A DNA stretch of 35,394 nt from Deltaproteobacteria bacterium (lineage in GTDB: Bacteria; Myxococcota_A; Polyangia; Polyangiales; JADJMO01), in the NCBI GenBank assembly GCA_022843175.1, contig JALHOE010000082.1, positions 1-35,394 of the forward strand, in the 5' to 3' direction. The notes beneath the pieces were generated by a model. It ran no database searches. It saw only the letters and a program-made list of their open reading frames with translations, and was not told the origin of the DNA. Within the stretch, counting starts at the first letter, position 1, and every line of letters starts with the position of its first letter. The translations under genes were made by a program, and so were the position numbers. This document shows, piece after piece, positions 4,010 to 25,457 of this stretch.

Positions 4010-4149
4010 GCGTCCGCTGATTTGCATCGGCCGTACCACGACGTGGCGCCCACGGGCGGCGCGCGAACGAGCGCCGTTGCCTCGTGAAATGACCGGCCGC
4101 CGGCGCGCGCCCTGCGCGGGGCGCATCCGGTTCGCGAACTCGTTTCATC

Positions 4150-4186: not shown

Positions 4187-4948
4187 GTGGCGCTCCGGAA
4201 TCGAGACCAGCCCGTCCTCCGCAAGGCAGACGTGGTCGCCCGCGACCTGCTCGAGCAGATCGCGTCGGGCACGCTCGAGGTCTCGTCCATCCTCCCCAAC
4301 GAGGCCGAGCTCGCGGTGCACTATCAGGTCAACCGCAGCGTCATCCGCGAGGCGATCAAGCTGCTCGAGGTGCACCAGCTCGTGAAGCCGGTGCGGCGTC
4401 GCGGCACGGTGGTGCTCGACCCGTTCGCCTCGCTCAGCCCCGAGGTGCTCCGCGCGATGGTCACCCGCAAGAGCGGGAAGATCGACGCGGAGTTCCTCGC
4501 GAGCTTCCTCGAGATCCGCGCCGCGCTCGACGTGCTCATCTGCGGGTGGGTCGCCGAGCGCCGCAAGAAGGGAGACCTCGCGGCCCTCGAGCAGCACGTG
4601 GAGCGGATGCGCGGCCTCACCGGCGACCCCGACGCGTACACGGAGGCCGGCTTCGAGCTCGGCCTGCTGCTCGCGCGAGCCACCCACAACCCGGTGGCGC
4701 TCATGCTCGCCCACTGGAACCGCGCGGTCACCCGCGATCTCCCGCACGTGTTCGGGGTCGCGCGCGCCACGTCGGGCCCGCACCTCGAGGGGCTGACGAT
4801 GTTGCTCGAGCGCTTCCGCGAGAAGGACGCCGAACAGGCGCGCGCGCTCGTCACTGCATTTCACGCCTGGGCCACGCCGCGGATCCTCGCGGCCGCAGCC
4901 CTGGCGAACGGCGAGCCGATGGCTCGGGTGAAGAAGGAGCTGCGATGA
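4187..4948 (+). CDS. GntR/FadR-family (FCD) transcriptional regulator
   Basis: This 253-residue protein has an N-terminal winged helix-turn-helix (about residues 12-78). The signature LPNEAELAVHYQVNRSVIRE resembles the GntR 'LPSExxLaxxfgVSRxxVRe' motif, with a wing RRRGTVV. An all-helical FCD effector domain follows (about residues 95-240, from EIRAAL to TAFHAWATP). FCD regulators usually bind carboxylates or amino-acid-like ligands and repress adjacent catabolic genes. The GTG start at 4187 fits the winged-helix N-terminus, and no in-frame ATG lies upstream. The stop codon overlaps the next start (ATGA), so the three genes are very probably one transcript, with this protein sensing a substrate or product of the two hydrolases. 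Confidence 0.9.
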   Translation: MALRNRDQPVLRKADVVARDLLEQIASGTLEVSSILPNEAELAVHYQVNRSVIREAIKLLEVHQLVKPVRRRGTVVLDPFASLSPEVLRAMVTRKSGKIDAEFLASFLEIRAALDVLICGWVAERRKKGDLAALEQHVERMRGLTGDPDAYTEAGFELGLLLARATHNPVALMLAHWNRAVTRDLPHVFGVARATSGPHLEGLTMLLERFREKDAEQARALVTAFHAWATPRILAAAALANGEPMARVKKELR

Positions 4949-8666: not shown

Positions 8667-9782
8667 TCATTCGAGCGCGAAGTCGCGCACGACCGCCATG
8701 TGCTGCATGTTCAACGCCGCCGAGTCGGTGGCCAGCGCTGGCGCGAGATCGGCGATGGGCGTGTAGACGCGGGTGTCCACGACGAGCCCGCTCGCAAACT
8801 CGCTTCCGCCGATGCGCACCGGGATCATCCGGGCGAAGAGGGAGGGACCGGGCAGCACCCAGTCGTAGGGTCGGTTGCGTGGCGCGTTGGTCTTGTTGTT
8901 GGCGGCCTGATCGACGGCGTAGGGCGCGGCGGTGACCACCACCGCCGAGAGCGTCGAGAGCGCCAGCTCGGTCTCGATGGAGGCGTTGAGATCGCCGCCG
9001 ACCACGAGGAAGGCCGCCGCGGGGATCTTGGCCTTGATGGTGTCGACGAGGAGCTTGGCCTCGGTGTCGCGCGCCGTCGCGCTCGTGGTGCGGAGGTGCA
9101 CGCTCACCGCGTAGAGATCGGTCGGTCCGGGCACGTCGATGCGAGCCCAGACGAAGTCGCGATCGAAGACGTCGGGATCGTCCCACTCGCCGGATTCGAC
9201 GATCGGATAGCGGCTGATGATCCCGTTGGGGATCGTCCCGAGCTCGGTCTCGATCGCGTAGGAGAAGCCGGTGCCGAAGGCAGTGTCGACGAGCGCGCGC
9301 GGGCCCGCGGGGTATTTGAACTCTTGGATGAGCACGATGTCGGGCTGGAGGCCCTGCATGATGCGGATGCCCGGGCCGTCGTAGGTGAGCGAGGGGCCGC
9401 TCGAGAGGTTTCCGGCCAGGATGCGGACGCGGGTCGCGGTGCAGCCGGCGTCGGTGCCGGGGGGGCAGACAGGGGGGAAGGAGGACGGCGGGAAGGCGGT
9501 GTCTGCGGTTGCGTCTGCGTCTGCGTCTGCGTCTGCGGTTGCGTCTGCGTCTGCGGTTGCGTCCGCGTCTGCGGTTGCGTCTGCGTCCGCGGTTGCGTCT
9601 GCGTCTGCGTCCGCGGTTGCGTCTGCGTCCGCGGTTGCGTCTGCGGTTGCGTCTGGGTCGGGTGCGGTGTCGATCGTCGTGCTGTCGACTGCGGAGTCGA
9701 GGGGCTCGGCGTCCGCGGTGGCGTCGGGGGAGCGGGAGCAGCCGAGTGCCAGGAGCAGCCAGGCGAGGCGACGGAAAACCAC
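8667..9782 (-). CDS. Endonuclease/exonuclease/phosphatase (EEP)-fold lipoprotein
   Basis: A GTG start at 9782 opens a signal peptide with Arg-Arg, LAWLLLAL and lipobox LGC at residues 13-15. A low-complexity ATADADA stalk (about residues 20-95), encoded by hexanucleotide repeats, leads to the catalytic domain. That domain contains the EEP signatures: GNLSSG, PDIVLIQEF (metal-binding Glu), YAVSVHL (His), GGDLNA (Asp/Asn), RPYDWVL (Asp) and a C-terminal QHMAVVRDF (general-base His). All the usual catalytic positions are present, so it should be an active Mg-dependent phosphodiesterase or nuclease acting outside the cytoplasm on nucleic acid, phospholipid or sugar phosphate; sequence alone does not decide which. 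The 371-residue total is the usual ~270-residue domain plus stalk. Confidence 0.85.
   Translation of the reverse strand: MVFRRLAWLLLALGCSRSPDATADAEPLDSAVDSTTIDTAPDPDATADATADADATADADADATADADATADADATADADATADADADADATADTAFPPSSFPPVCPPGTDAGCTATRVRILAGNLSSGPSLTYDGPGIRIMQGLQPDIVLIQEFKYPAGPRALVDTAFGTGFSYAIETELGTIPNGIISRYPIVESGEWDDPDVFDRDFVWARIDVPGPTDLYAVSVHLRTTSATARDTEAKLLVDTIKAKIPAAAFLVVGGDLNASIETELALSTLSAVVVTAAPYAVDQAANNKTNAPRNRPYDWVLPGPSLFARMIPVRIGGSEFASGLVVDTRVYTPIADLAPALATDSAALNMQHMAVVRDFALE
9501..9656. repeat. Hexanucleotide tandem array encoding the ATADAD stalk
   Basis: About 26 units of gcgtct, gcgtcc and gcggtt follow each other without interruption (+ strand). Read on the minus strand they give Asp-Ala and Thr-Ala dipeptides. 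The unit length is a multiple of three, so slippage would lengthen or shorten the lipoprotein stalk in frame. Confidence 0.85.
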
Positions 9783-10580: not shown

Positions 10581-10973
10581 TCACCGGGACGCGTCGCTCG
10601 ACGTGTCATCCCGGTTGGTGCACGTACCCGCCTCGCAGCTGAGCCCATCGTTGCAGGCGCCGCAGCTCCCTCCGCAGGTGTAGCTGCCGCACTTGGTGGA
10701 GCAGGTGTAGCTCGTGCCATCGATCTCGGCGACCTGGAGCGCGCCGTCGTCGTTGACGTCGATGCCGTAGTCCACGCGAAGGCCGCCGAACGGGCAGCGC
10801 GTCCCCGGCGCCTCGCTGCGGGTCTCGAGAGCGATGCCGTGCTCCTTCCTTGGCAGGCTCTCGATCGCCGCGAGCTCGACCGAAGGCTGGACTGTGCTCT
10901 CGCCCTCGGGCGGGAAAGCGCAACCCTGGATGCAGGCGACAACTGCGAGGGCGTGGAGTGTCAGTGCATTCAT
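10581..10973 (-). CDS. DUF7151-like small lipoprotein with Cys-rich tail
   Basis: The ATG at 10973 starts a 130-residue protein with signal peptide and lipobox IQGC at residues 15-18. The segment from GTRCPFGG through GIDVNDDGALQ to EIDGTSYTC matches the 'GxxCxxGGxxixxGxDxNxNGxLxxxEv...yxC' pattern of the DUF7151 family found in many myxobacterial surface proteins; the D-x-N-D-D-G loop resembles a calcium-binding loop. The tail repeats CGxYTCGGxCGxCxxGLxC-like disulfide spacing. A perfect TCACCCC-N2-GGGGTGA palindrome is centred 61.5 bp upstream of the start. The function is unknown, probably a small exposed envelope protein. Confidence 0.78.
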   Translation of the reverse strand: MNALTLHALAVVACIQGCAFPPEGESTVQPSVELAAIESLPRKEHGIALETRSEAPGTRCPFGGLRVDYGIDVNDDGALQVAEIDGTSYTCSTKCGSYTCGGSCGACNDGLSCEAGTCTNRDDTSSDASR

Positions 10974-11026
10974 ATTCGGTAGAACGGGCGCCCTGGGTCG
11001 CGCGGTTAGACCTCGCGAATCGGCCC

Positions 11027-11042
11027 TCACCCCGCGGGGTGA
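11027..11042 (-). promoter_or_regulatory. 7-2-7 palindrome TCACCCC-GC-GGGGTGA, site 1
   Basis: A perfect 16-bp inverted repeat centred 61.5 bp upstream of the DUF7151-like lipoprotein start (10973). Read toward that gene, 18 nt follow and then TAAC, in the position of a -10 box. It belongs to the set listed at 19720, 19755, 24681 and 24739. Confidence 0.7.
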
Positions 11043-11158: not shown

Positions 11159-13492
11159 TCAGGCGAGCGCGCGCTCCACCGCGCCAATCAGGCGCACGGA
11201 GTCGATCGGCTTGGCGAGGTAGTCGGTGCACCCGGCGGACAGCGCGCGCTCGGCGTCGCCCGCCATCGCCTGCGCCGTGACGGCGATGACCGGGATGCCG
11301 TGGGTGAGCACGTCGCGTTTGAGCTCGCGCGTGGCCGCGAGGCCATCCATGTCGGGGAGCATCACGTCCATGAGGATGACGTCCGGTCGCTCGTTTCGCG
11401 CGATGGCCACCGCGGAGAGCGCGTCGCGCGCTTCGAGCACGTCGTAGCCTCGGTGGGCGAGCATGGTGGAGATCAAGCGTAGGTTCTGGTCGTTGTCGTC
11501 GACGGCGAGAACCCGCCGGCGCCGCTGCTCGCCCGAGAGCGAGTTCACGTGGCGGAGGAACGACGAACGCGACAGGGTGCCCTTGGAGAGGACCAACACG
11601 CCGTGGCCCTGCAGGTCGCGCATCTCGGCGTTGGTCAGCTCGCGCGCTGTGAGCACGATCGTCGAACATCCCTTCCGCTTCTGGAGCTCGTCGAGGAGCG
11701 ACGCGCCGTCGCCGTCGGGCTGCGAGATCTCGAGCACGACCAGGCCGTAGCGGTTGGCGAGCGCGGCGCGCGCGCCGTGCAAGTTCGGGGCGATGTCGAC
11801 CTCGAAACCGTCGCTCTCGAGGAGGGCGCCGACGGTCGCTGCGTCCTCGGACGAATCGATGACCAGCGCGCGCCGCCGGAGCGCACGGCGACGCGCCGCC
11901 TGAACGTGCTCCACCATCGTCGCACGGTCGAACGGCTTGGCCGCGTAGGCCCGCGACGGCACGCCGAGGTCCTCGCTGCCGAGCGTCGACGTCACGACCA
12001 TCGACACGCCAAAGCGCTTTCGAGCGAACGCGAGCGCGTCGGTGACGGTGGTCTCCGGCAGCGTCGGGTCGATGACGATGGCCTCGACCGGTTGCGTCGC
12101 CGCGAGCTTGCGCGCGTCGGCGAGCGTGCAGGCGATCACCGCAGGGATGCCCGCCCCTTCCAGCATGTGCGCGGCGAGGCGGGCGGCGGCGTCGTCAGCG
12201 TCCACGATGAGCACCGTGGGCGGCTCGTGGTCGGTGCGAGCCGTCGGTCGGGCGCTGGTCGACCGCAGCGGACGAGTAATCCCGAACGTCGGCCGTACCT
12301 GCCGCTCGGCGCGCGGCAGGTTGAGCCAGAACCGCGAGCCCTTGCCCGTCTCGCTCTCGAAGCCGATCGTGCCGCCGTGCATCGCCGCGAGGCGCTTGCA
12401 GATCGCGAGGCCGAGGCCGGTGCCGCCGAACCGGCGGGTGACCGAGCCGTCGACCTGCGAGAAGTCCTTGAACAGCTTCTCCGCGTCCGCCGGAGCGATG
12501 CCGATCCCGGTGTCGGTGACGCTGATGGTCACGATGTCGCCGGTGGCCGTCGCCGAGAGGTGAACCGAGCCATGCGGGGTGAACTTCACCGCGTTCGACA
12601 ACAGGTTGATGAGGATCTGCCGGACGCGATCGGCGTCGCCCCGGATGCACAGCGGCTCCGAGGGCTCCGACAGCCGGAGCTCGATCGCGTTGGCGGCGGC
12701 CTGCGGGCGCACGAAGGTGAGCGCCTGCGACGTGAGCTCGGAGACGTCCAGGTTCTCGACCGCGAGCTCCATGCGTCCGGCCTCGATCTTCGAGAGGTCG
12801 AGGATGTCGTTGATCAGACCGAGCAGGTGGCGGCCAGCGCCGAGCACATCGGAGGCGCACGACAGCTGCCGCTCGTTCAGCGTGCCGTAGCAGCCGTCCA
12901 TCAGCACCTCGGTGAAGCCGAGCACGGCGTTGAGCGGCGTGCGCAGCTCGTGAGACATGTTGGCGAGGAACTCGCTCTTCTGCTGCGTCGCGCGGGTCAG
13001 GGCAGCGATGTTGGCCTCGAGCTCCGCGCCCTTGCGCCGCAGATCGTGCTCGAGGACTCGTTCGCGCGTCACGTCCCGGAAGACCGCGACGGCGGCGCGC
13101 GAGGCCTCGTCGTCCGAGAGCTTCGCGAGCTTGACCTGGATGATTTGGTTCTGCCCGTTGCCCCCGATCGCGACCTCCAGGCCCGACGAGGTGTTGCCCT
13201 CTCGGAGCGCCTGCACCAGCGGGTTGGTGTCGTCGGCGAGGGAGAGCCGCGAGGCGCGCTCGTCCTCCGTGGCGACGCCCACCAGCTCGCGTCCCACCGC
13301 GTTCAATCGCACGATGGTGCCCGCGTCGTCGGTGACCGCGAGCCCATCGGGCATCGCCTCGAACATCGCGCCGTGGTGCGCTGCGAGCCAGGACGCGCCG
13401 TCCTCGAAGCGCAGCGCGCGTCTGCGCTCGCGAAAGAGGGCGACGAGGGCGACGAGGGCGACTGCAGCACAGAGGATCGTGAAGGGCACCAT
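11159..13492 (-). CDS. Hybrid histidine kinase with PAS and three receiver domains
   Basis: The protein has 777 residues. An N-terminal hydrophobic segment (about 3-20) anchors it in the membrane, followed by a PAS domain (about 45-160). HisKA carries FLANMSHELRTPLN with phospho-acceptor His181. The HATPase domain has N-box LINLLSNAVKFT, G1 DTGIGI and G2 GGTGLGLAI. Three receivers follow: REC1 (about 425-540, Asp475, KPF), REC2 (about 540-655), where Glu588 replaces the acceptor Asp, and a canonical REC3 (about 660-775, Asp709, AVTAQA, AKP). REC2 is probably a constitutively 'on' or structural receiver. A ribosome site (GAGGGGG) lies at the end of the upstream receiver-kinase gene, only 10 bp away, so the two are co-transcribed and likely form one relay. 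Confidence 0.92.
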   Translation of the reverse strand: MVPFTILCAAVALVALVALFRERRRALRFEDGASWLAAHHGAMFEAMPDGLAVTDDAGTIVRLNAVGRELVGVATEDERASRLSLADDTNPLVQALREGNTSSGLEVAIGGNGQNQIIQVKLAKLSDDEASRAAVAVFRDVTRERVLEHDLRRKGAELEANIAALTRATQQKSEFLANMSHELRTPLNAVLGFTEVLMDGCYGTLNERQLSCASDVLGAGRHLLGLINDILDLSKIEAGRMELAVENLDVSELTSQALTFVRPQAAANAIELRLSEPSEPLCIRGDADRVRQILINLLSNAVKFTPHGSVHLSATATGDIVTISVTDTGIGIAPADAEKLFKDFSQVDGSVTRRFGGTGLGLAICKRLAAMHGGTIGFESETGKGSRFWLNLPRAERQVRPTFGITRPLRSTSARPTARTDHEPPTVLIVDADDAAARLAAHMLEGAGIPAVIACTLADARKLAATQPVEAIVIDPTLPETTVTDALAFARKRFGVSMVVTSTLGSEDLGVPSRAYAAKPFDRATMVEHVQAARRRALRRRALVIDSSEDAATVGALLESDGFEVDIAPNLHGARAALANRYGLVVLEISQPDGDGASLLDELQKRKGCSTIVLTARELTNAEMRDLQGHGVLVLSKGTLSRSSFLRHVNSLSGEQRRRRVLAVDDNDQNLRLISTMLAHRGYDVLEARDALSAVAIARNERPDVILMDVMLPDMDGLAATRELKRDVLTHGIPVIAVTAQAMAGDAERALSAGCTDYLAKPIDSVRLIGAVERALA

Positions 13493-13502
13493 GGTTTCCC
13501 CC

Positions 13503-14645
13503 TCAGTCGACGAACGCAGACGTGGCGCGTGCGGTGGGCTCCGGAATCGTGATGCGGAAGCGGGTCGGCCACGCCTCGTCGGAGTCGACCGCGATCCCCC
13601 CGCCGTGCGCCTCCGCGGCGAGGCGACAGAAGTAGAGCCCGAGCCCCTGGTGGCTCCCTCCTCGCTCGGTGGTCGCGTACTTCTCGAACAGCCGCGTGCG
13701 CTGTGCGGGCGCCATCGGAGCGCCGGTGTTCGACACGGTGATCGCGGTCGCGCGCCCGTCGCCGACCGCGGCGAGCTCGACGAGGCCGGGCGTGCCCGCG
13801 AACCGCGCCGCGTTCTCCACCAGGTTCTCGATCGCGCGCTCGAGGACCGAGCAATCGATCGTGGCGCGCAGGTCGGGATCGCCGGTGACCCGAATGGTCA
13901 CACCGCGAAGCTCGGCGTCGCGGGCGTGGCGGCGGGCGACGGCGTCGAGCAGCGCGCCCACGCGGGCGGGCTTGCGATCGAGGCGTAGCTGACTGTTCTC
14001 GACCCGGTCGACGTCGATCAGCGTGCCGATCATCAAGAGCAGTCGCGCCGTGCTCGACGTCGAGTCGTCAATCGCCTCGAGCATCATCGCGTCCTTGCTC
14101 TGCGCCGCGCGCGAACGCACCCATTGGAGGTTGCCCTGCAGCGCCGCGAGCGGGTTCTTGAGATCGTGGACGATCAGGCGCGAGAGGTCGGCGCGCGCCT
14201 GCTGCACGCGCTCGAGCTCTTCGGCGCGCTGACGCAGCGTCCGCTGGGCCTCGCGTAGGGCGATGAACGTGCGCACCCGGCAGCGAACCTCGTGGGGATC
14301 GAGCGGCTTGCTGAGGAAGTCGTCGGCGCCGGCCTCGAGGCCGCGCATGCGGTCCTCCCGCGCCGACAGCGCGGTCACGAGGACGATCGGCAGCCGCTCG
14401 CCGGCGGAGGTGCACCCCCGCATCTCCGCGAGGGCGCCGAAGCCGTCGAGCTCGGGCATCATCACGTCGAGGAGCACCAAGTCGAGCTCGTCGGTTGCGT
14501 GGAGCTCGCGGAAGAGCGCCACCGCCTGGCGGCCGTCGGTCGCTCGCCGTGTCTCGATGCCGATGGGTGCGAGGACCGCCTCCAGCAGCGCCAGGTTCCG
14601 CGGCTCGTCGTCGACGATGAGGACTCTGTTGGGTTTTTCGGACAT
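13503..14645 (-). CDS. Receiver-histidine kinase (REC-HisKA-HATPase)
   Basis: The protein has 380 residues and no membrane segment. Residues 5-125 form a receiver (IVDDEP acidic pocket, acceptor Asp60 in LLDVMMPELDG, Thr in VTALS, Lys in LSKPL). A coiled-coil linker (RTLRQRAEELERVQQ) leads to HisKA with LIVHDLKNPLAAL and His160. The HATPase domain has N-box ENLVENAARF, G1-like SNTGAPM and G2 HQGLGLYF. Asn-Thr-Gly in place of Asp-x-Gly in G1 is unusual and might lower ATP affinity. The protein can receive phosphate and then control its own kinase output. It is the first gene of an operon with the three-receiver kinase (10-bp gap), divergent from the single-receiver gene at 14811. Confidence 0.9.
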   Translation of the reverse strand: MSEKPNRVLIVDDEPRNLALLEAVLAPIGIETRRATDGRQAVALFRELHATDELDLVLLDVMMPELDGFGALAEMRGCTSAGERLPIVLVTALSAREDRMRGLEAGADDFLSKPLDPHEVRCRVRTFIALREAQRTLRQRAEELERVQQARADLSRLIVHDLKNPLAALQGNLQWVRSRAAQSKDAMMLEAIDDSTSSTARLLLMIGTLIDVDRVENSQLRLDRKPARVGALLDAVARRHARDAELRGVTIRVTGDPDLRATIDCSVLERAIENLVENAARFAGTPGLVELAAVGDGRATAITVSNTGAPMAPAQRTRLFEKYATTERGGSHQGLGLYFCRLAAEAHGGGIAVDSDEAWPTRFRITIPEPTARATSAFVD

Positions 14646-14810: not shown

Positions 14811-15200
14811 ATGACAACCACCGATCGCGTCCTTCTCGTCGACGACGAGCCGATCCTCCTCGGGCCGCTGCGCCGCCTGATCCAACGCGCGCATCCAGAA
14901 GCGCTGGTGGTCTACGCGTCCGACCCGGAGATGGCGGAGTGGCAGCTGCGCTCGACGCCGATCCTTCTCGTCGTCACCGACATGCGTATGAACTCCGACG
15001 ATCACGCCGGCCTCAAGGTAGTGGCCGCGGCGCGCGAGGCGGGGGTCGCGGTCGCCGTGCTCACCGGCGCCGGCGACGACGAAATCGCCGAGATGGCGCG
15101 CGGCGGCTTCCCCGTCGTCTCGAAGCGCGACTCGCTCAGCGTGACGCTCGCGAAGATCGTCAATGACGCGTTCGCCGCCGCGAACCGGCCTGCCGCCTGA
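14811..15200 (+). CDS. Single-domain response regulator
   Basis: At 129 residues this is a receiver alone: acidic pair in LLVDDEP, acceptor Asp57 in VVTDMRM, a Thr in VLTGAG and the conserved Lys in VVSKRD. Such stand-alone receivers carry phosphate between kinases, act as phosphate sinks, or bind targets such as motor proteins. It is 26 bp upstream of the NarL-type regulator gene and likely co-transcribed with it. The kinase partner is probably one of the two encoded divergently on the left. Confidence 0.88.
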   Translation: MTTTDRVLLVDDEPILLGPLRRLIQRAHPEALVVYASDPEMAEWQLRSTPILLVVTDMRMNSDDHAGLKVVAAAREAGVAVAVLTGAGDDEIAEMARGGFPVVSKRDSLSVTLAKIVNDAFAAANRPAA

Positions 15201-15226: not shown

Positions 15227-15847
15227 GTGACCGACGACACCCACCCGGGATTTCTCGTGGTCGAGGACGACGACCTCGTCGCGCGCTGGCTCGTGCGTGC
15301 GTTCTCCAAGTTCAGACCGGTCCATCGCGCCGGCACGGTCGCCGACGGGCGTGCGCGACTCGCCGACCCGAACCTGAAGCTCGTCGCGCTGTGCACCGAT
15401 ATCAACCTCCCCGACGGACTCGGCCTCGACGTGCTCCGCACCGCGCGCGAGCTCCATCCACGCATCGCCACGCTGGTGCTCACCGCGAACACGCAGCCGA
15501 AGATCGTCAACAACTCGTTCCTCCTCGGCGCGTCGTTCCTCTCCAAGCCCACGACGGCGGAGTCGCTCGAGACCTTCGCGCGCCGCGCGCTCGCGTGCGA
15601 GGGCGTCGAGGACACCCGCGTGCTGCGGGTGCTCGAGATGGTCGCCGGGGAGTGGTCGTTGAGCGACCGCGAGGTCGAGCTGCTCGGTCTGGCGGTCGCC
15701 GACCGCCCGCGAGACCAGCTCGCCGACGCGCTCGGGGTCACCGAGAACACGACCAAGACTCAAGTGAAGAACCTCCTCCGCAAGAGCGGCACCAAGAACC
15801 TCGATCATCTGGTGCGCGTGGTTCTCCACCGGGCATTGCAGGGGTAG
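15227..15847 (+). CDS. NarL/FixJ-family response regulator (REC-LuxR HTH)
   Basis: A GTG start at 15227 is preceded by a good ribosome site (GGTGAGGAG). The 206-residue protein has an N-terminal receiver (EDDD acidic pocket, acceptor Asp58 in CTDINLPDG, Thr in VLTANT, Lys in LSKPT). A C-terminal LuxR-type helix-turn-helix follows (about residues 140-203: LSDREVELLGL, DQLADALGVTENTTKTQVKNLLRK). It is the only receiver protein in the window with a recognisable DNA-binding domain. NarL-family dimers often bind inverted 7-bp half-sites spaced by 2 bp, the geometry of the TCACCCC-N2-GGGGTGA sites in this region, so it is the prime candidate to bind them. That link is an inference. Confidence 0.9.
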   Translation: MTDDTHPGFLVVEDDDLVARWLVRAFSKFRPVHRAGTVADGRARLADPNLKLVALCTDINLPDGLGLDVLRTARELHPRIATLVLTANTQPKIVNNSFLLGASFLSKPTTAESLETFARRALACEGVEDTRVLRVLEMVAGEWSLSDREVELLGLAVADRPRDQLADALGVTENTTKTQVKNLLRKSGTKNLDHLVRVVLHRALQG

Positions 15848-15850
15848 ATT

Positions 15851-15969
15851 GCGTTAGACGCTCGCTGACGCGCGCGCCTGTCTTGGTAGCGCGCGCGTCA
15901 GCAAGCGCCCAACGCCAATGACGCGCGCGCCCGTCTTGGTAGGCGCGCGCGTCAGCGAGCGCCTGACGC
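15851..15969. repeat. Nested inverted/tandem repeat between convergent genes
   Basis: Outer arms of 28 nt (15851-15878 and 15942-15969) are inverted copies that match at 26 of 28 positions. Inside, a 53/54-bp unit occurs twice in tandem (15867-15919 and 15920-15973). Each unit is itself a hairpin: GACGCGCGCGCC, a loop containing GTCTTGGTA, then GCGCGCGCGTC. The element fills most of the gap between the narL-type gene and pilU, which point toward each other. It could be a strong two-way transcription stop, a REP/MITE-like extragenic element, or a source of structured RNA. It has no coding character. Confidence 0.8.
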
Positions 15970-16012
15970 CAATACTGTTGGCACCGCCGAGATCTGGCGC
16001 GGTCGTCGCGGC

Positions 16013-17206
16013 TCAGCGCCGCTTCCACGGCGCGAGCGGGAGCAGCTGGAGCGGGGCCTCGAACGGAGTGCCAGAGCTGCCCTTGTGTCGGTCGATCTCG
16101 AGGCGGAGGTTGTTCGGGCTGTCGGCTGCGCGGAGCGCTTCGGCCTCGGTGATCTTCCCCTCGACGAACAGCTCGAGCAGCGAGCCGTCGAACGTGCGAC
16201 ATCCCTCGAGACCGGAGACGCGCATCGCGTCCTTGATCGAGTCGATGTCGCGCTTCTTGATCAGGTCCTTGATCCGCGGCGTGTCGAGCATGACCTCGAG
16301 GCAGGCCGCGCGCCCGCCGTTGACCTTCGGGATCAGCCGCTGCGAGATGATCGCGCGGAGGTTGAGCGAGAGCTGGAGGCCGATCTCCGAGTGCCGCTCG
16401 CTCGGGAAGAAGTTCATGATCCGTTCGAGCGCCTGGTTGGCGTTGTTCGCGTGCAGGGTCGAAATGCAGAGGTGGCCGGTCTCGGCGAAGGTGATCGCAG
16501 CTTCCATCGTCTCGGCGTCGCGGATCTCGCCGATGAGGATGACGTCCGGCGCCTGGCGGAGCGTGTTCTTGAGCGCGCTCGCGTACGACCTGGTGTCGGT
16601 GCCGATCTCGCGCTGGGTGACGACGCACTTCTTGTGCGGGTGCACGAACTCGAGTGGATCCTCGACCGTGATGATGTGCCCGGTCTCGGTGCTGTTGCGG
16701 TGATCGATCATCGCCGCGAGCGCCGTCGACTTGCCGCTGCCGGTGGCGCCGACGACGAGAACGAGGCCGCGCCGGCTCATCGAGATGTCGGCCATCACCT
16801 TCGGGTACTCGAGCTCGCGGAGCGTCTTGATCTTCGCGCGCACCAGGCGGATGACCATGCCGACCGCGCCGCGCTGGCGAAAGACGTTCACGCGGAACCG
16901 GCCCTCCCCCTTGGACACGGCGAGGTTCATCTCGTGGGTCGAGGTGAACTCCACCCGCTGCTCGGTGGTCATCAGGGTCGACGCCATCATGGAGATGAAG
17001 CCCGCTTCGAGCGCGACCTTCCCGGGTAGACCGACGCCGTTCACCCGAAACACCGGCGGGCTCTCGGCCGTGAGGTAGAGATCGGAGGCGTCGATCTTGA
17101 GCATGTGCGCGAGCAAGAGCTCGATGGAGCGCGCCGGATCGCCCTTCTCCTCGCGGGCGACCTCGCGGATGGTGTGGGGCGGGTACACGTTCAGTGCGTT
17201 GCTCAT
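16013..17206 (-). CDS. pilU: PilU-type type IV pilus retraction ATPase
   Basis: This 397-residue AAA+ secretion ATPase shows Walker A GATGSGKST, Asp box VEDPLEFVH, Walker B ILIGEIRDAETM and His box TGHLCISTLHANN. The last motif and the run NNANQALERI...FFP..RH are diagnostic of PilU rather than PilT. The N-terminal domain (about residues 25-130) has the ASDLYLTAESPP motif of this family. PilU assists PilT in disassembling the pilus at the inner-membrane platform, giving forceful retraction and twitching (S) motility. The start has AAGGGAG 6 bp upstream and overlaps the pilT stop by 4 bp. The C-terminus is extended by roughly 25 residues with a basic end. It is the third gene of the receiver-AAA+/pilT/pilU operon. 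Confidence 0.92.
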   Translation of the reverse strand: MSNALNVYPPHTIREVAREEKGDPARSIELLLAHMLKIDASDLYLTAESPPVFRVNGVGLPGKVALEAGFISMMASTLMTTEQRVEFTSTHEMNLAVSKGEGRFRVNVFRQRGAVGMVIRLVRAKIKTLRELEYPKVMADISMSRRGLVLVVGATGSGKSTALAAMIDHRNSTETGHIITVEDPLEFVHPHKKCVVTQREIGTDTRSYASALKNTLRQAPDVILIGEIRDAETMEAAITFAETGHLCISTLHANNANQALERIMNFFPSERHSEIGLQLSLNLRAIISQRLIPKVNGGRAACLEVMLDTPRIKDLIKKRDIDSIKDAMRVSGLEGCRTFDGSLLELFVEGKITEAEALRAADSPNNLRLEIDRHKGSSGTPFEAPLQLLPLAPWKRR

Positions 17207-18285
17207 GGCCTGCTCCCTTGTTGTTCGGCGACGCGCTCGAGGCTGATGAGAAGCTCGGAGCCCGGCAGGCGCTCGCGCGCCTCCTTCGCGGTGATTGCCT
17301 TGCGGGTCACGAGATCGGCGAGCGCCGCCTCCATGGTCTGCATCCCGGCCTTGCCCCCGACCTGCATCTGCGATGCGATCTGGTGGGTCTTGCCCTCGCG
17401 GATCAGGTTGCGGACGCCGGGCGCCCCCACCAGGATCTCGTGCGCGGCGATGCGACCGCCGCTCGGCCGCTTGACGAGCATCTGGGTCACCACGCCCACG
17501 ATCGACTCGGCGAACATCGCGCGAATTTGCGCCTGCTCGCCGCCGGGGAAGACGTCGATGATGCGATCGACGGTCTTCGGCGCGCTCGCCGTGTGCATCG
17601 TGGCGAACACCAGGTGCCCGGTCTCCGCGGCGGTGAGCGCGAGCTGGATCGTCTCCTGATCGCGGAGCTCGCCGACGAGGATCACGTCTGGATCCTCGCG
17701 GAGCGCGCTCCGGAGCGCGGCGTTGAACGAGTGCGATTGCGGACCGATCTCGCGCTGGTTGACCAGCGAGCGCTTGCTCGGATGGACGAACTCGATCGGA
17801 TCCTCGAGCGTGAGGATGTGCCCGGCCATCGACTCGTTGAGGTAGTCGATCATCGCGGCGAGCGTCGTCGACTTGCCGCTGCCGGTCGGCCCGGTGACGA
17901 GCACGAGCCCCTTCTCCTCCTCGCAGAATCGAGCGAGCACCGGCGGCAGCCCGAGGTCCTCGAAGCGCGGGATCTTCGTCGGGATGGTGCGGAACACGGC
18001 GCCCTCGCCCCGGTTGTGGACGAAGGCGTTCACGCGAAAGCGGGTGTTGTCGTCGAGGTTGTAGGCGAAGTCGATCTCGAGCTTCTCCTGGTAGCCGCGG
18101 CGCTGGGCGTCGTTCATCACGTCGAACACGACGGCGTGGGCGTCGTCCCTCGACAGCGCGGGGAGATCGACCGACCGGAGCTCGCCGCTGATGCGGAGCA
18201 TCGGTCGCTCGCCGGCGGAGATGTGGAGATCGGACGCGCCCTGTTCGACGGCGAAGCGCAGCAGGCGGGTGGCGAGCGGGGTCAT
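17203..18285 (-). CDS. pilT: PilT type IV pilus retraction ATPase
   Basis: From the ATG at 18285 (GGAGGAA upstream, 4-bp overlap with the preceding stop) the protein has 360 residues, typical for PilT. It shows ASDLHISAGERP at the N-terminus, Walker A GPTGSGKST, Asp box LEDPIEFVH, Walker B ILVGELRDQETI, His box TGHLVFATMHT and the PilT-type tail with an LL pair near the C-terminus (GSELLISLERV). The ring-shaped hexamer powers depolymerisation of type IV pili. Placement behind a receiver-containing regulator and before pilU makes a dedicated, signal-controlled retraction module. No pilus assembly genes (pilB, pilC, pilA) lie in the window, so it may be a second pilT set. Confidence 0.93.
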   Translation of the reverse strand: MTPLATRLLRFAVEQGASDLHISAGERPMLRISGELRSVDLPALSRDDAHAVVFDVMNDAQRRGYQEKLEIDFAYNLDDNTRFRVNAFVHNRGEGAVFRTIPTKIPRFEDLGLPPVLARFCEEEKGLVLVTGPTGSGKSTTLAAMIDYLNESMAGHILTLEDPIEFVHPSKRSLVNQREIGPQSHSFNAALRSALREDPDVILVGELRDQETIQLALTAAETGHLVFATMHTASAPKTVDRIIDVFPGGEQAQIRAMFAESIVGVVTQMLVKRPSGGRIAAHEILVGAPGVRNLIREGKTHQIASQMQVGGKAGMQTMEAALADLVTRKAITAKEARERLPGSELLISLERVAEQQGSRP

Positions 18286-19667
18286 GACGCTTCCTCCACG
18301 AAAGAAATGTGGGACTTGGCGATGAAGTGGGTCGCGGCGGCGCTGTGCACGACGATCAGTTCGCCCGCCTCCGCGAGCACCGCGGCGGCGGTCATGCGGC
18401 CGACGCCGGCGATCCACCGGAGCTCTCCCTCTACGCTGTGGCCGCTGAGCAGCCGGACCGACACGTTGCGGGACTTACGGGGGAGCGAGTCGGTCGGGAG
18501 CCGTCGCTCCATGGTGACCATCGCGATCGTGGCTCTTCCATAGTGCCTGCAGACGCCCTCGTCCTCGACCATGAGAAAGGTGTCGGGCCCGACGAGCAGC
18601 GACTCGACGGACTGACCGCCGCAGGTAAGCAGCGACACGGAGCGTTTCGTGCCGTCGTGGAGCAGGAGCGCCGCGCGGACCTGATCGACGGCGATCGGCT
18701 CCTCCTCTTCGTTCTCTCGGTGGCTGCCTCCACGCTCCACGAGATCGGCGACCAGGGCCTCGAGCTCGCCGACGTTTCCTGGCAACCGATAGCTCTGGAG
18801 AGAGCCGACGATCGACGAGCCGAGCTCGACCCGTAGGCCGTGTCGCCGGTTGGCGGCGTCGACGAAGTGCCGAATCAGCGCAGGGACGTCCTCGGGGCGA
18901 TCGCGGAGAGGTGGTACGGACAGCCGCGTCTCGTGCAGCGGGGCGAGGTCGGTGCCGATCGCACCAACGCTGCCGGCGATCACCCGTACGACGCCGCGCG
19001 CGATCACCTTGCACAGGGTGGCGCGAGTGGCAGGGAACAGCGCGAGCACGTCGTCGATGAAGACGCTGCCACGCCCCGCGCGCTCCACGGCGGCGAGGAG
19101 CGAGTCGTCGTCGCAACAGCGACCGGAGATGCTCACCAGCGGCTCGCCAGCGCGCGACGAGAGTCCGTGGAGCAGGCGGGCGAACACCTCCGTGCCCACG
19201 CCGTGCTCGGCCTCGAGCAACACCGCCGACGTCCCCCGGGCCACAACCTCGAGCCGCGCCAAGAGCTCCCGCATCGGCTCGGACTCGCCGATCAGCGCCG
19301 CCGAGTTGGTGTCCCGCCCGATCGCCGACTTGACGACCTCGGCGAGCTCGATCGCGTTGTAGGGCTTGGTGAGGAAGTCGATCGCTCCCGCGCGGAGCGC
19401 ACTCACGCAGTCCACCGTGCGCGAGCCGGTGAGCATGACGACCGGGGTCTTCGGCGCCTTCTCGCGGACGCTCTTGATGACGGCGAAGCCGTCGGCGTTC
19501 GGCATCTCCAGATCGGTGAGCACGAGCTCGAAGCGGTCCTCGGCGAGCAGCTCGGCCGCCGCGAGACCGTCCGCGGCCTCGGTGACCTCGAAGCCGAGAT
19601 CCACCAGCGTTCGACTGAGTGCACGGCGAAACATCGCGTCGTCGTCCACGGCGAGAATGCGCTGCAT
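18282..19667 (-). CDS. Receiver fused to a degenerate sigma54-type AAA+ domain and an unusual C-terminal domain
   Basis: From the ATG at 19667 the protein has 461 residues (the frame is open to 19712). Residues 1-120 form a receiver with acceptor Asp52 (LTDLEMPNADG) and Lys in LTKPY. Residues 130-320 follow the layout of bacterial enhancer-binding proteins (IGESEPMRELL, GSVFIDDV, VPPLRDRPEDVPALI, YRLPGNVGELEAL). However, the Walker A segment reads LEAEHGVGTEVFA, with no GxxGxGKE, and no GAFTGA loop is visible, so it should not hydrolyse ATP or contact sigma54. The Fis-type HTH is absent. Instead a ~115-residue beta-rich domain ends in VRLLSGHSVEGELRW...HFIAKSHISFVEE. It is probably a phospho-dependent scaffold controlling the PilT/PilU proteins encoded in the same operon. 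Confidence 0.85.
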   Translation of the reverse strand: MQRILAVDDDAMFRRALSRTLVDLGFEVTEAADGLAAAELLAEDRFELVLTDLEMPNADGFAVIKSVREKAPKTPVVMLTGSRTVDCVSALRAGAIDFLTKPYNAIELAEVVKSAIGRDTNSAALIGESEPMRELLARLEVVARGTSAVLLEAEHGVGTEVFARLLHGLSSRAGEPLVSISGRCCDDDSLLAAVERAGRGSVFIDDVLALFPATRATLCKVIARGVVRVIAGSVGAIGTDLAPLHETRLSVPPLRDRPEDVPALIRHFVDAANRRHGLRVELGSSIVGSLQSYRLPGNVGELEALVADLVERGGSHRENEEEEPIAVDQVRAALLLHDGTKRSVSLLTCGGQSVESLLVGPDTFLMVEDEGVCRHYGRATIAMVTMERRLPTDSLPRKSRNVSVRLLSGHSVEGELRWIAGVGRMTAAAVLAEAGELIVVHSAAATHFIAKSHISFVEEAS

Positions 19668-19719
19668 GCACTGACTAACGGCCCCCGCGCGAGGCGGTGT
19701 AGCGGGCGCCACGCGGCGC

Positions 19720-19735
19720 TCACCCCGAGGGGTGA
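19720..19735 (-). promoter_or_regulatory. 7-2-7 palindrome TCACCCC-GA-GGGGTGA, site 2
   Basis: Both 7-bp arms are perfect. The centre is 60.5 bp upstream of the receiver-AAA+/pilT/pilU operon start (19667). Read toward that gene, TACA begins 19 nt after the palindrome, at the place of a -10 box. It lies 35 bp (centre to centre) from site 3, which faces the divergent gene. Confidence 0.7.
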
Positions 19736-19754: not shown

Positions 19755-19770
19755 TCACCCCGTCGGGTGA
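19755..19770 (+). promoter_or_regulatory. 7-2-7 palindrome TCACCCC-GT-CGGGTGA, site 3
   Basis: One mismatch in the right arm. The centre is 60.5 bp upstream of the receiver-HD-GYP start (19823), exactly mirroring site 2 and the divergent operon. TTAT begins 19 nt after the palindrome. Confidence 0.68.
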
Positions 19771-19822: not shown

Positions 19823-20881
19823 ATGAACGACCTATTCCAAGCCCCGGCCCGGATCGTCCTCGTTGAGGATGACGTTGCTCTCGCGCGCGCCACGCGCCGC
19901 CTCCTGTCCGAGCTCGGGCAGGTCAACATCGAGACCTACTACGACGTCGCGTCGGCCCGGAAGGCGCTCGAGCACGAGTTCGACGTGCTCGTCTCGGACT
20001 TCCAGCTGCCGGATGGAAGCGGCGTCGAGGTGCTCGCCGCGGCTGCCGCCACCTCCGCGAACGCGCCGCGCATCCTCGTCACGGCGAACACGCAATGGGA
20101 CTGCGCGACCAAGTCCATCAACGAGGGCGGCGCGTTCCGCGTCCTCGCCAAACCGTGCGCGGACGACCTGCTCCGCGCCACGGTGGGTCACGCGTTGGCG
20201 ATGAAGCGCCAGGCCGACGCGCGCGCCGAAGAGCAAGCTGCGCTCGAGCGCCATCACTGCGAGATCGCCGCGGCGAACGCCGACCTGTTCATCGATACGC
20301 TGAGCCGCTCGCGCGAGGTCGTCGCGTCGCGAGATCGCGTGGTGCGCGCGCTCAGCCGTGCCATTGACCGCCGCTTCGGAGCGGCGTTCGTCCGGACCGT
20401 CCGCCTCGCGTCCGTCGCGCGAGCGTTCGCGGAACACCTCGGGATCACCGGCGAGGAACTGCGCGCGATCGAGGCCGGCATCCTCCTCCACCGTGTCGGC
20501 GCCGTGGCGATGCGCGACGACGAGAGCCCCGATCTGCTCCCGTTCCTCGGCGTCGAGCTGCTGCAGGAGCTCGGCATGCCGTCCAACATCCAGCACGTCG
20601 TCGGCGACGTCGGTGAGCACTTCAACGGCAGCGGGCTCCAACGGCGGAGCGGCGTCGGGATCGCGCTCGGCGCGCGGATCCTCGCCGTCGTGCACCGCTA
20701 CCTGGTGCGTATGGATGGCCGCGACGATGCCGAGGCGCACGAAGAGGCGTGCCTCGAACTGCTCGCCGCCGAGGACCTCGACCCGGAGCTGGTCGCCGCG
20801 TTCGTCGTCGAGCGCGGCGGCAGCTTCGCGCGCAAGAGCGCCGACACCGTTCCCTTCATCCCCTGTCTGTCCGATGGCTGA
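19823..20881 (+). CDS. Receiver fused to a degenerate HD-GYP domain
   Basis: The 352-residue protein begins with a receiver (VEDD, acceptor Asp59 in VSDFQLPDG, VTANT, AKPC; about residues 8-125). A coiled linker leads to a C-terminal domain arranged like RpfG-type HD-GYP cyclic-di-GMP phosphodiesterases. The catalytic signatures are eroded: HDIGK reads HRVGA (LLHRVGAVAM), and the HHExxDGxGYP region reads EHFNGSGLQRR. Metal-binding His and Asp residues are missing, so hydrolysis is unlikely; binding of cyclic-di-GMP or of a partner protein is more plausible. It overlaps or abuts the following single-receiver gene and is divergent from the receiver-AAA+/pilT/pilU operon, with mirrored operators. 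Confidence 0.85.
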   Translation: MNDLFQAPARIVLVEDDVALARATRRLLSELGQVNIETYYDVASARKALEHEFDVLVSDFQLPDGSGVEVLAAAAATSANAPRILVTANTQWDCATKSINEGGAFRVLAKPCADDLLRATVGHALAMKRQADARAEEQAALERHHCEIAAANADLFIDTLSRSREVVASRDRVVRALSRAIDRRFGAAFVRTVRLASVARAFAEHLGITGEELRAIEAGILLHRVGAVAMRDDESPDLLPFLGVELLQELGMPSNIQHVVGDVGEHFNGSGLQRRSGVGIALGARILAVVHRYLVRMDGRDDAEAHEEACLELLAAEDLDPELVAAFVVERGGSFARKSADTVPFIPCLSDG

Positions 20882-22894: not shown

Positions 22895-23758
22895 TCAGTC
22901 GCCGGTCGTGAATGAGGTCTCTGCGACCTCGCCGAAGCGCGCGCGGTAGGTCGTGCGCGGGGCGAGCGGGGCGAGCGGCACCAGATGGGCCTCGCCCGGG
23001 CGAATCAGCTTGTTCGGATCGTTGCTCGCCGTGAGAAGGACGCTCTTGATCGGCCCGCTCGGGCCCTCGAGGGTCGCCGTGAGGTGCGGGAGCGCCTTCT
23101 GTCGCACGAGCGAGATCGGCGCGCCGACGAGCGTGCTGCCGGCGACCGGGTTCGGAGTCTCGCGGGACGAGAAGAACGTGGTCGGTACGTGGTAGGCCCC
23201 GGGCGGGGGCCACACTACGGTCACGTCGGCGCGCTTGGTGTCGCGCCCGAAGTCGATGGTCGCGCAGGCGCCGACGCGTCCGTACCCGAACGACGTGAGC
23301 TCGCTGCGGAGGAACAGCGCCCGGTGATACACACTGTTCAAGAAGCCCGCGGGTGACGCGATCGCCTCTCGACCGGTGATGTTCGCGAGAACCTCGCCGC
23401 CCGGATCCTCGCGGAACCCGGCGGACCGCAGCCGGTCCTCGAAGCTCACGCCGGTGAACCCCTTGCGGCCGCGCTGCTGGACATGGGTGAGCTCGCCGTT
23501 TTCGATCACATACCGGCAGTGTCCGACGGCAGCGAGGGCAGCCGCCCGATCGCAGCGCAGCGCCGGGAGCCCCGCGAGGGCGCGGACCCGCGCGATGGCC
23601 ATGCGCGCGCCGTGTACGTCGTCGTCTTCGTCGGCGCACGGCGTGTCGTCGAGCGGCGCGCGGTCGACGCCGCCCATCTCGCTGGCCTCGTTCGTCGGTG
23701 CCTCGCGATTCGCCGTGCAGGCCGTCACCGCGAGAGCAGCGAACAGGAGCGCGCGCAT
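22895..23758 (-). CDS. CAP-domain (SCP/PR-1-like) lipoprotein
   Basis: The 287-residue protein has a signal peptide with lipobox VTAC (residues 11-14). The domain at about residues 50-190 has the bacterial CAP layout: a first helix with RVRALAGLPALRCD, a GHCRYVIENGELTHVQ helix with the conserved Asn-Gly-x-Leu-x-His, FEDRLRSAGF, GEVLAN, and VYHRALFLRSELTSFGYG, followed by the hydrophobic core strand. Bacterial CAP lipoproteins are envelope proteins of uncertain activity. The C-terminal ~85 residues form a beta-sandwich-like module (LAPRTTYRARFGEVAETSF). Its start lies 2 bp after the stop of the double-receiver gene, so signalling protein and lipoprotein share one transcript under regulon site 5. 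Confidence 0.82.
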   Translation of the reverse strand: MRALLFAALAVTACTANREAPTNEASEMGGVDRAPLDDTPCADEDDDVHGARMAIARVRALAGLPALRCDRAAALAAVGHCRYVIENGELTHVQQRGRKGFTGVSFEDRLRSAGFREDPGGEVLANITGREAIASPAGFLNSVYHRALFLRSELTSFGYGRVGACATIDFGRDTKRADVTVVWPPPGAYHVPTTFFSSRETPNPVAGSTLVGAPISLVRQKALPHLTATLEGPSGPIKSVLLTASNDPNKLIRPGEAHLVPLAPLAPRTTYRARFGEVAETSFTTGD

Positions 23759-23760
23759 GG

Positions 23761-24624
23761 CTACGCTGCGCGCGTGACCAGCGAGTCGACGATGCGGCAG
23801 AAGTGCTCGCCGTCGAAGGGCTTGATCAAGCAGCGGAGCGCGGAGACGTCGAACGTCTCCTCGTAGGTGGTGGCGCGGTTGTCCGCGGTGACGAACATGA
23901 TCGGGACGTCGCGGTTGCCGGCCCCGTACCTGCCGTTGCGGATCTGGTGCGCGAGCTCGATCCCGGTCTGCATCGGCATCGAGACGTCGAGCACCAACAT
24001 CTGGAAGCGGGTGGTGCGGAGCAGCTCGATCGCGTACGCAGGGCTCGGCGCGCTGAAGGTCGTGTAGCCCGCGGTGCGGAGGGTGCGATCCATCATCCGC
24101 AACAGCTGTGCGTCGTCGTCGACGATGAGTAGGTCAGCGGCGTAGATCGGGCGCGCGATCGCCAATGGCATCGGCTCGGGCTGCTTCTCCTGCTGCGTCG
24201 ACAGGGCGATCGGAGCAGCCTCGTCCTTGTGCGCGATGACGTTCGCGAGCAGCTGACGGAGGGTGCGCTCGAAGAGCGGCCGCTCGACGATGACGTTCGC
24301 GCTGGTGCCGACGGCCATCGCTTGCTCGGATCGGCGCGAGGCGCACACGTAGATCACCACCAGCGTCGGATCGACGCGGCGCGCGAGGCGAATCAGCCGT
24401 GCCGCGGACATGTCGTCGACGTCATCGCTGACGACCAACGCGTCGACGGCGCCATCGCACATCATGCCGAGCGCGTCCTTCACGTTGTCGAGGGACACTG
24501 CCCCGAGCTCGGCGACGACGGTCTCGAAGACGCGGTGGTCCTCGGTGTTACGACTGGCGAGCAGAAACGCGGCGCGATGGTTGGGGTTCAGCACGGCGAC
24601 CTCCCGACGCGGAGCTGTCCGCAT
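23761..24624 (-). CDS. Double-receiver response regulator (N-terminal receiver degenerate)
   Basis: From the ATG at 24624 (TTGAAGAG just upstream) the protein has 287 residues; the frame opens at 24684 but that start would fall within the regulon palindrome. Residues 5-125 have receiver-like alternation (ALVVSDDVDD at the acceptor strand, VIVERPL in place of the Lys-Pro turn), but the first acidic pair and the Lys are lost. Residues 165-285 are a canonical receiver (IVDDD, acceptor Asp213 in VLDVSMPMQTG, FVTADN, LIKPF). No output domain is present, so it relays by protein contact. It is the first gene of the operon with the CAP lipoprotein. Confidence 0.87.
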   Translation of the reverse strand: MRTAPRREVAVLNPNHRAAFLLASRNTEDHRVFETVVAELGAVSLDNVKDALGMMCDGAVDALVVSDDVDDMSAARLIRLARRVDPTLVVIYVCASRRSEQAMAVGTSANVIVERPLFERTLRQLLANVIAHKDEAAPIALSTQQEKQPEPMPLAIARPIYAADLLIVDDDAQLLRMMDRTLRTAGYTTFSAPSPAYAIELLRTTRFQMLVLDVSMPMQTGIELAHQIRNGRYGAGNRDVPIMFVTADNRATTYEETFDVSALRCLIKPFDGEHFCRIVDSLVTRAA

Positions 24625-24680: not shown

Positions 24681-24696
24681 TCACCCCGCGGGGTGA
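24681..24696 (-). promoter_or_regulatory. 7-2-7 palindrome TCACCCC-GC-GGGGTGA, site 5
   Basis: A perfect 16-bp palindrome, identical to site 1, centred 64.5 bp upstream of the double-receiver gene start (24624). Read toward that gene, TTAA begins 19 nt after it. Confidence 0.7.
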
Positions 24697-24738: not shown

Positions 24739-24754
24739 TCACCCTTCGGGGTGA
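24739..24754 (+). promoter_or_regulatory. 7-2-7 palindrome TCACCCT-TC-GGGGTGA, site 6
   Basis: One arm mismatch; with its flanks it reads ATCACCCTTCGGGGTGAT. It faces the Pro/Gln-rich lipoprotein gene (24861), with its centre 114.5 bp upstream of the start, farther than the other sites. A TTTT tract begins 18 nt after it, so the transcript would have a longer leader (about 85 bases). Confidence 0.62.
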
Positions 24755-24860: not shown

Positions 24861-25457
24861 ATGCGCACTCAACTCGCTCTGCTGTTCATCCTCGCTCAGT
24901 CGATCGGCTGTTACGGCGGCGCCGACCCCACCGGTTCGGCGAAGTCGCAGAAGCTCCAGTGCGACCCGAACTGCGCAGACTGGGAGCTCTCGCCGAACAT
25001 CGCGCCGGTGAGCGACCTTCCGGTCGCCGATACCGGACCCGCCGACACCGACGGGGCGATCGAGGACGCGCCGGTTCGCGAGTTCGAGTACCCCCCGATC
25101 GAGGCGCCAGTGCAGCAGACGCCGCCGGCCGAGCAGTCGCCGCCGGCGCAGCAGTCGCCGCCGGCCGAGCAGACGCCGGTGACCGAGCAGTCGCCGCCCG
25201 CACAGCAGTCGCCGCCCGCGGAGCAGTCGCCGCCCGCACAGCAGACGCCGCCCGCGGAGCAGTCGCCGCCGGCACAGCAGACGCCGCCCGCGGAGCAGAC
25301 GCCGAGCCAGCAGGCACCGCAGGATCCGTGCGCCGGTCTCGGACCCGAGAGCCCGGTGACGCGGACGTGTCCGCCGCCCGCCCCCCCCGTCGATCAGGCA
25401 GCGGAGGATCCGTACGGCAACCCGCCGCCCGAGCAGCAGCAGCCCTCGGACGGCTGA
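24861..25457 (+). CDS. Pro/Gln/Glu-rich repeat lipoprotein
   Basis: A strong ribosome site (GAGGAGGT) precedes the ATG by 7 bases. The 198-residue protein has a signal peptide with lipobox SIGC (residues 14-17), then a Cys pair (CDPNC), an acidic segment, and a tract (about residues 85-150) of alternating PPAEQSPPAQQ and PPAEQTPPAQQ units. The end is again Pro/Gln-rich with two cysteines (DPCAGLG...TRTCPP). The repeat likely forms an extended, protease-resistant stalk or wall-associated spacer. There is no enzyme-like region. It is divergent from the double-receiver operon. Confidence 0.82.
   Translation: MRTQLALLFILAQSIGCYGGADPTGSAKSQKLQCDPNCADWELSPNIAPVSDLPVADTGPADTDGAIEDAPVREFEYPPIEAPVQQTPPAEQSPPAQQSPPAEQTPVTEQSPPAQQSPPAEQSPPAQQTPPAEQSPPAQQTPPAEQTPSQQAPQDPCAGLGPESPVTRTCPPPAPPVDQAAEDPYGNPPPEQQQPSDG
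25110..25315. repeat. 15-bp tandem repeat encoding PPAEQ/PPAQQ units
   Basis: About 13 units of 15 bp (variants of cagtcgccgcccgcg/gag) lie in frame within the Pro/Gln-rich lipoprotein gene. Copy-number change would alter stalk length without a frameshift. Confidence 0.8.

Follow-up and report, generated by a model that had tools for sequence, protein, structure and literature searches.

The closest described counterparts of the regulator considered here are Escherichia coli NarL, the FixJ, StyR, LiaR and RcsB proteins and FruA of Myxococcus xanthus, which has a LuxR-type helix-turn-helix (HTH). To our knowledge, few response-regulator targets have been established for uncultured myxobacterial relatives, and our literature search found no relevant paper linking TCACCCC to a response regulator. 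NarL has been crystallised on the 7-2-7 site TACCCCTAAAGGGGTA, in which the cores are arranged as ACCCC-N4-GGGGT, and its engineered high-affinity half-site TACCCCT contains ACCCC as well (PMC4549865). Here we describe P0001, a NarL/FixJ-type response regulator encoded in a stretch of 35,394 nucleotides (the window), one of the 470 contigs (C82) that make up a genome of 9.75 Mb. At this locus, the regulator, its likely operator, a small regulon and the promoter layout can be read from sequence. The original prediction had likened the palindromes surrounding the gene to NarL sites. The analogy holds for the fold and for the ACCCC core but not for the register: like NarL, P0001 combines a receiver with a GerE-type HTH, and the heptamers are inverted and separated by 2 bp, but the sites read ACCCC-N2-GGGGT (or N3), so that the cores lie 2 bp apart and not 4 bp as between the TACYYMT heptamers of NarL 7-2-7 sites. 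The outer bases are TC instead of the T of NarL sites.

The regulator gene and its upstream neighbour are:

15227-15847, forward strand: NarL/FixJ-type response regulator P0001, receiver plus GerE/LuxR HTH (Pfam, alignment, AlphaFold model)
14811-15200, forward strand: single-domain receiver protein (Pfam Response_reg)

The 206-residue open reading frame of P0001 matches the Pfam receiver with 37.9 bits (cut-off 30.2) and the GerE/LuxR HTH with 33.2 bits (cut-off 23.5). The acidic pocket, the phosphoacceptor D58, T86 and K107 are all kept, D58 being placed by alignment and T86 and K107 being invariant in alignment A1. The AlphaFold model (mean pLDDT 89) consists of the receiver and a four-helix HTH with helices at residues 147-157, 162-169, 173-187 and 192-205. 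P0001 thus has both the N-terminal receiver with Asp, Thr and Lys and the C-terminal four-helix HTH that define NarL/FixJ (LuxR-HTH) membership. The upstream receiver gene ends 26 bp before the regulator start and is probably co-transcribed with it. This operon carries no palindrome of the type described below, the best match upstream of 14811 having 6 mismatches, so that P0001 shows no sign of the autoregulation suggested by sites upstream of several homologues. Between the regulator and a convergent PilT-like gene, positions 15850-15975 hold two near-identical GC-rich hairpin-like tandem repeats (TGACGCGCGCGCC...TCTTGGTA...GCGCGCGTCAGC) that are possibly a terminator.

By Pfam, the window encodes seven receiver proteins, one fewer than the eight predicted for the block, and P0001 is indeed the only one with an HTH, none being found on the others. 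The only other DNA-binding regulator by Pfam in the window is of the GntR type (4187-4948), 6 kb from the nearest palindrome. Short tandem repeats with units of about 6, 18 and 21 bp occur at 9471-9716, 25069-25322 and 330-590, the first two inside predicted secreted or lipoprotein-like genes (8667-9782 and 24861-25457).

In the window, TCACCCCNNGGGGTGA occurs perfectly at 11027, 19720 and 24681 and with one mismatch at 19755 and 24739. These sites, listed without strand, are:

11027-11042: TCACCCC-GC-GGGGTGA, 53 bp upstream of the start (10973) of the lipoprotein gene
19720-19735: TCACCCC-GA-GGGGTGA, 52 bp before the likely ATG at 19667 of the NtrC-like gene
19755-19770: TCACCCC-GT-CGGGTGA, one mismatch, 52 bp before the receiver-HD gene start at 19823
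24681-24696: TCACCCC-GC-GGGGTGA, 56 bp before the likely ATG at 24624 of the two-receiver protein
24739-24754: TCACCCT-TC-GGGGTGA, one mismatch, in the same divergent region as the 24681 site

When up to three mismatches to this 7-2-7 palindrome are allowed, the window contains 7 matches versus 1.66 +/- 1.37 in shuffles; many perfect 7-2-7 palindromes of other sequence are also present and were taken as background. Genome-wide counts were made by pattern searches. Perfect TCACCCC-N2-GGGGTGA exists only four times in the 9.75 Mb, three of these in the 35 kb window (binomial P about 2e-7) and the fourth at C36:25298, which places three of the four within 10 kb of the regulator gene. Six genes or operons had been expected behind the palindromes; we found five sites in three intergenic regions, with five genes pointing away from them. 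The likely targets, their neighbours and a representative promoter are:

10581-10973, reverse strand: likely target, small lipoprotein with DUF7151 (Pfam, promoter geometry)
18282-19667, reverse strand: likely target, NtrC-like receiver-AAA protein, starting at the likely ATG 19667
17203-18417 and 16013-17206: two PilT-like ATPases after the NtrC-like gene
19823-20881, forward strand: likely target, receiver plus HD domain protein (Pfam, promoter geometry)
23761-24624, reverse strand: likely target, protein with two receiver matches (Pfam, promoter geometry)
22895-23758: CAP-domain protein after the two-receiver gene (Pfam)
10974-11026, reverse strand: promoter-like element from palindrome to start codon (CTAACC ... 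CCGTT ... ATG), with equivalents before 19667, 19823 and 24624

The lipoprotein has a lipobox-like IQGC, as read from its sequence. The gene behind the C36 site is predicted from its sequence to encode a hybrid kinase (kinase plus receiver). The original prediction saw in P0001 a possible common output of the surrounding kinases (2054-4126, 11159-13492 and 13503-14645), which is conceivable; what the sites point to instead is that kinase and receiver proteins are among its likely targets, namely the receiver proteins of the window and the hybrid kinase of C36. Five promoters (10973, 19667, 19823, 24624 and C36) have a common layout of palindrome, CTTAWC-like element, CCGTT and start codon. The distance from palindrome to CTTAWC-like element is 17 nt at the four window promoters and 7 nt at C36, and the palindrome centres lie at -61 (10973), -60 (19667), -60 (19823), -64 (24624) and -51 (C36) from the ATG, the C36 site thus being about one helical turn closer. 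CCGTT is present in all five near the same offset from the start, and such a shared 5-mer arose in none of 5000 shuffles. The narrow pattern CTTATC-N15-18-CCGTT retrieves the C36 promoter and only two others in the genome, which says little. For the site at 24739, no matching promoter element was found toward 24861. Because the distance from CCGTT to the ATG is short, the layout suggests leaderless transcripts, and a leaderless start would put the palindromes at class I activator positions.

Two of the sites, 19720 and 19755, lie directly upstream of the NtrC-like gene (open reading frame 18282-19712), and NtrC-type activators commonly bind palindromes, so this neighbour might be thought to act on its own promoter. 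We consider it highly improbable as the binder. An HTH_8 match is absent even at E 10 in Pfam, and the Walker-A lysine, the GAFTGA motif and the Fis-type HTH of a sigma-54 activator are all missing. The C-terminus is modelled as beta-strands (mean pLDDT 75), and in genomes G054 and G056 the stretch examined upstream of the orthologues contains nothing within 2 mismatches of a site. Given the lack of an HTH, a degenerate ATPase and siteless orthologues, we reject this candidate. The trio of NtrC-like protein and two PilT-like ATPases (16013-19667) is itself conserved in these two genomes, without palindromes.

Comparison across the order says more about the binder. Homologues of P0001 were sought in 184 genomes of the order, 78 of which have one. 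In the 330 bp upstream of 87 homologues, we tallied the perfect inverted repeats formed by each 5-mer. The top rank went to ACCCC-N2-GGGGT with 8 loci, to which N3 adds 4. The resulting 12 of 87 compare with 0.1 in dinucleotide shuffles and with 4 for the half-site ranking second at the same spacings, and at spacers other than 2 and 3 the ACCCC/GGGGT repeat appears at most once. In about 226 kb of flanking and gene-body sequence from these loci, ACCCC-N2/N3-GGGGT occurs 3 times. The perfect core is missing upstream of the other 75 homologues. Where present, sites are found at distances of roughly 40 to 230 bp ahead of the gene, and their bearers fall into at least five separate tree branches, some tree positions being poorly supported. 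The closest site-bearing homologue, from G078 (43% identity), is preceded within 260 bp by three N2 sites, and in its 20 kb neighbourhood no other gene in common with the window was detected. Four perfect N3 sites of the order adjoin subfamily genes, one of them (G143) at the downstream side; 0.007 would be expected using an estimated total of 1.2 million genes (P about 1e-10). All 10 genomes with at least three perfect sites have a homologue, versus 78 of 184 overall (Fisher 1.3e-4, phylogeny ignored). Since the palindrome stands upstream of homologues in at least five branches and the multi-copy genomes have a homologue, the NarL-type subfamily, not an unrelated factor, most likely recognises it. 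The proposed link between regulator and palindrome is therefore upheld at the level of the subfamily by upstream sites and genome co-occurrence, and it is weakened at the level of P0001 by the siteless operon.

These data also bear on a different, global transcription factor that would bind the palindromes and whose targets happened to include many genes for NarL-type and other signalling proteins. Many sites do precede unrelated genes, and five genomes have a perfect N2 site but no detected homologue. However, the enrichment is seen upstream of subfamily genes and not elsewhere in the same loci. Variant and spacer moreover track the regulator clade: within a single genus, one clade has WTACCCC-N2 and another TCACCCC-N3, and different paralogues are preceded by different variants, a pattern that shared promoter descent could also explain. 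We regard such a factor as quite unlikely. Some further observations concern individual loci. In G059 (contig C78, L113:52-123), a tandem array of three palindromes spaced 28 bp apart, with one mismatch in each of the first two and none in the third, stands upstream of a gene that encodes another kind of GerE-HTH protein, which also carries PilZ. In two site-bearing homologues, L082:10846-11430 and L084:9401-10003, the receiver phosphoacceptor Asp is apparently replaced by Glu, and these proteins may be constitutively active. A scan of genome contigs with the single P0001 protein returned only three relatives, one on Myxococcales bacterium 68-20.

Recognition by the subfamily leaves the question of which member acts in the window. 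The genome contains four further matches to P0001, and the sites might be bound by one of these (e.g. C14:36068, C38:45664 or C96:27028), P0001 then having other targets. We searched the whole genome for TCACCCC-Nx-GGGGTGA at every x between 0 and 20. Apart from a single site at x=12, matches were confined to x=2 (four sites) and x=3 (18 sites), and the reversed control pattern gave zero matches. As only spacers 2 and 3 recur, there are two spacer classes, and the window sites belong to the 2-bp class. The half-sites are identical in both classes, the C14 paralogue has its own 7-3-7 site 43 bp upstream and the P0001 operon has none, all of which would suit a paralogue as binder. The 2-bp-spacer sites nevertheless cluster on P0001's contig, and spacing is constant for each homologue clade and therefore arguably paralogue-specific. 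We think that binding by another member is rather unlikely, if less so than binding by a global factor. The 18 perfect N3 sites are found on C3, C7, C14, C15, C37, C45, C56, C115, C157, C168, C197, C223 and C415, with four on C37, and are mostly extended to ATCACCCCnnnGGGGTGAT; some (C3, C45, C115) precede genes with a phage-like look and share the downstream string GACACCTCGCCGTAAGT.

Several of the 3-bp-spacer sites are centred at -36 to -45, with the element TANNNT located 6-9 nt ahead of the start, which would be nearer to a class II position. It is conceivable, and for now a tentative idea that we hold with some reserve, that the NarL-type family of this order tells its targets apart by the spacer of one half-site, with paralogues in the same cell reading either TCACCCC-N2-GGGGTGA from about -61 or TCACCCC-N3-GGGGTGA from about -42. 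If true, spacer reading would give separate regulons that differ by one base pair. How NarL-type dimers read spacing and keep their paralogues separate could be tested cleanly on these two palindrome classes, whose half-sites are identical and whose spacers differ by one base pair.

Taken as a whole, the likely explanation is that P0001 itself binds TCACCCC-N2-GGGGTGA and activates the neighbouring signalling genes. The domains, the sites and their scarcity outside the window, the co-occurrence of sites and subfamily and the fixed promoter geometry stand as computed observations, and from them we infer binding, the choice of P0001 among its paralogues, dimerisation, phosphorylation and the direction of regulation. 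The subfamily would recognise inverted ACCCC repeats whose half-sites are 2 bp apart (or 3 bp, in paralogues). P0001, probably active when phosphorylated at D58, would bind TCACCCC-N2-GGGGTGA as a dimer. At one promoter on another contig, as well as at four in the window, it would most likely activate transcription from a position of class I type. Its assignment as the binder of the window sites would rest on proximity, homology, the G078 comparison and the C14 paralogue's own N3 site, and the other matches in the genome and the siteless operon leave room for doubt. The activated genes would comprise the NtrC-like gene with the PilT ATPases, the receiver-HD gene, the two-receiver gene, the lipoprotein gene and, elsewhere, the hybrid kinase gene. 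Class I-type activation is proposed because the site is centred some 60 (or 51) bp ahead of the start codon and precedes a TA-element/CCGTT promoter; we infer activation, the transcription start sites and the sigma factor alike.

P0001 differs in several respects from the proteins named at the outset. As a NarL orthologue it is rejected, scoring 28.5 bits against a cut-off of 250 for the NCBIfam NarL equivalog. Among solved full-length folds, StyR, FixJ, LiaR, DesR and RcsB come closest, with NarL lower in the ranking. With FixJ, StyR, LiaR and RcsB, compared by fold and sequence, P0001 shares the two-domain fold, the best full-length structure matches and FixJ-like family scores, but identity is about 17-24% and no equivalog cut-off is reached. 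For FruA, a GGGYR element has been proposed (PMC4320627). Compared at the level of this published element, the GGGTG of the palindromes is compatible with it, whereas the FruA consensus GGGYR-N4-6-YGGG differs from the inverted repeat of the P0001 sites.
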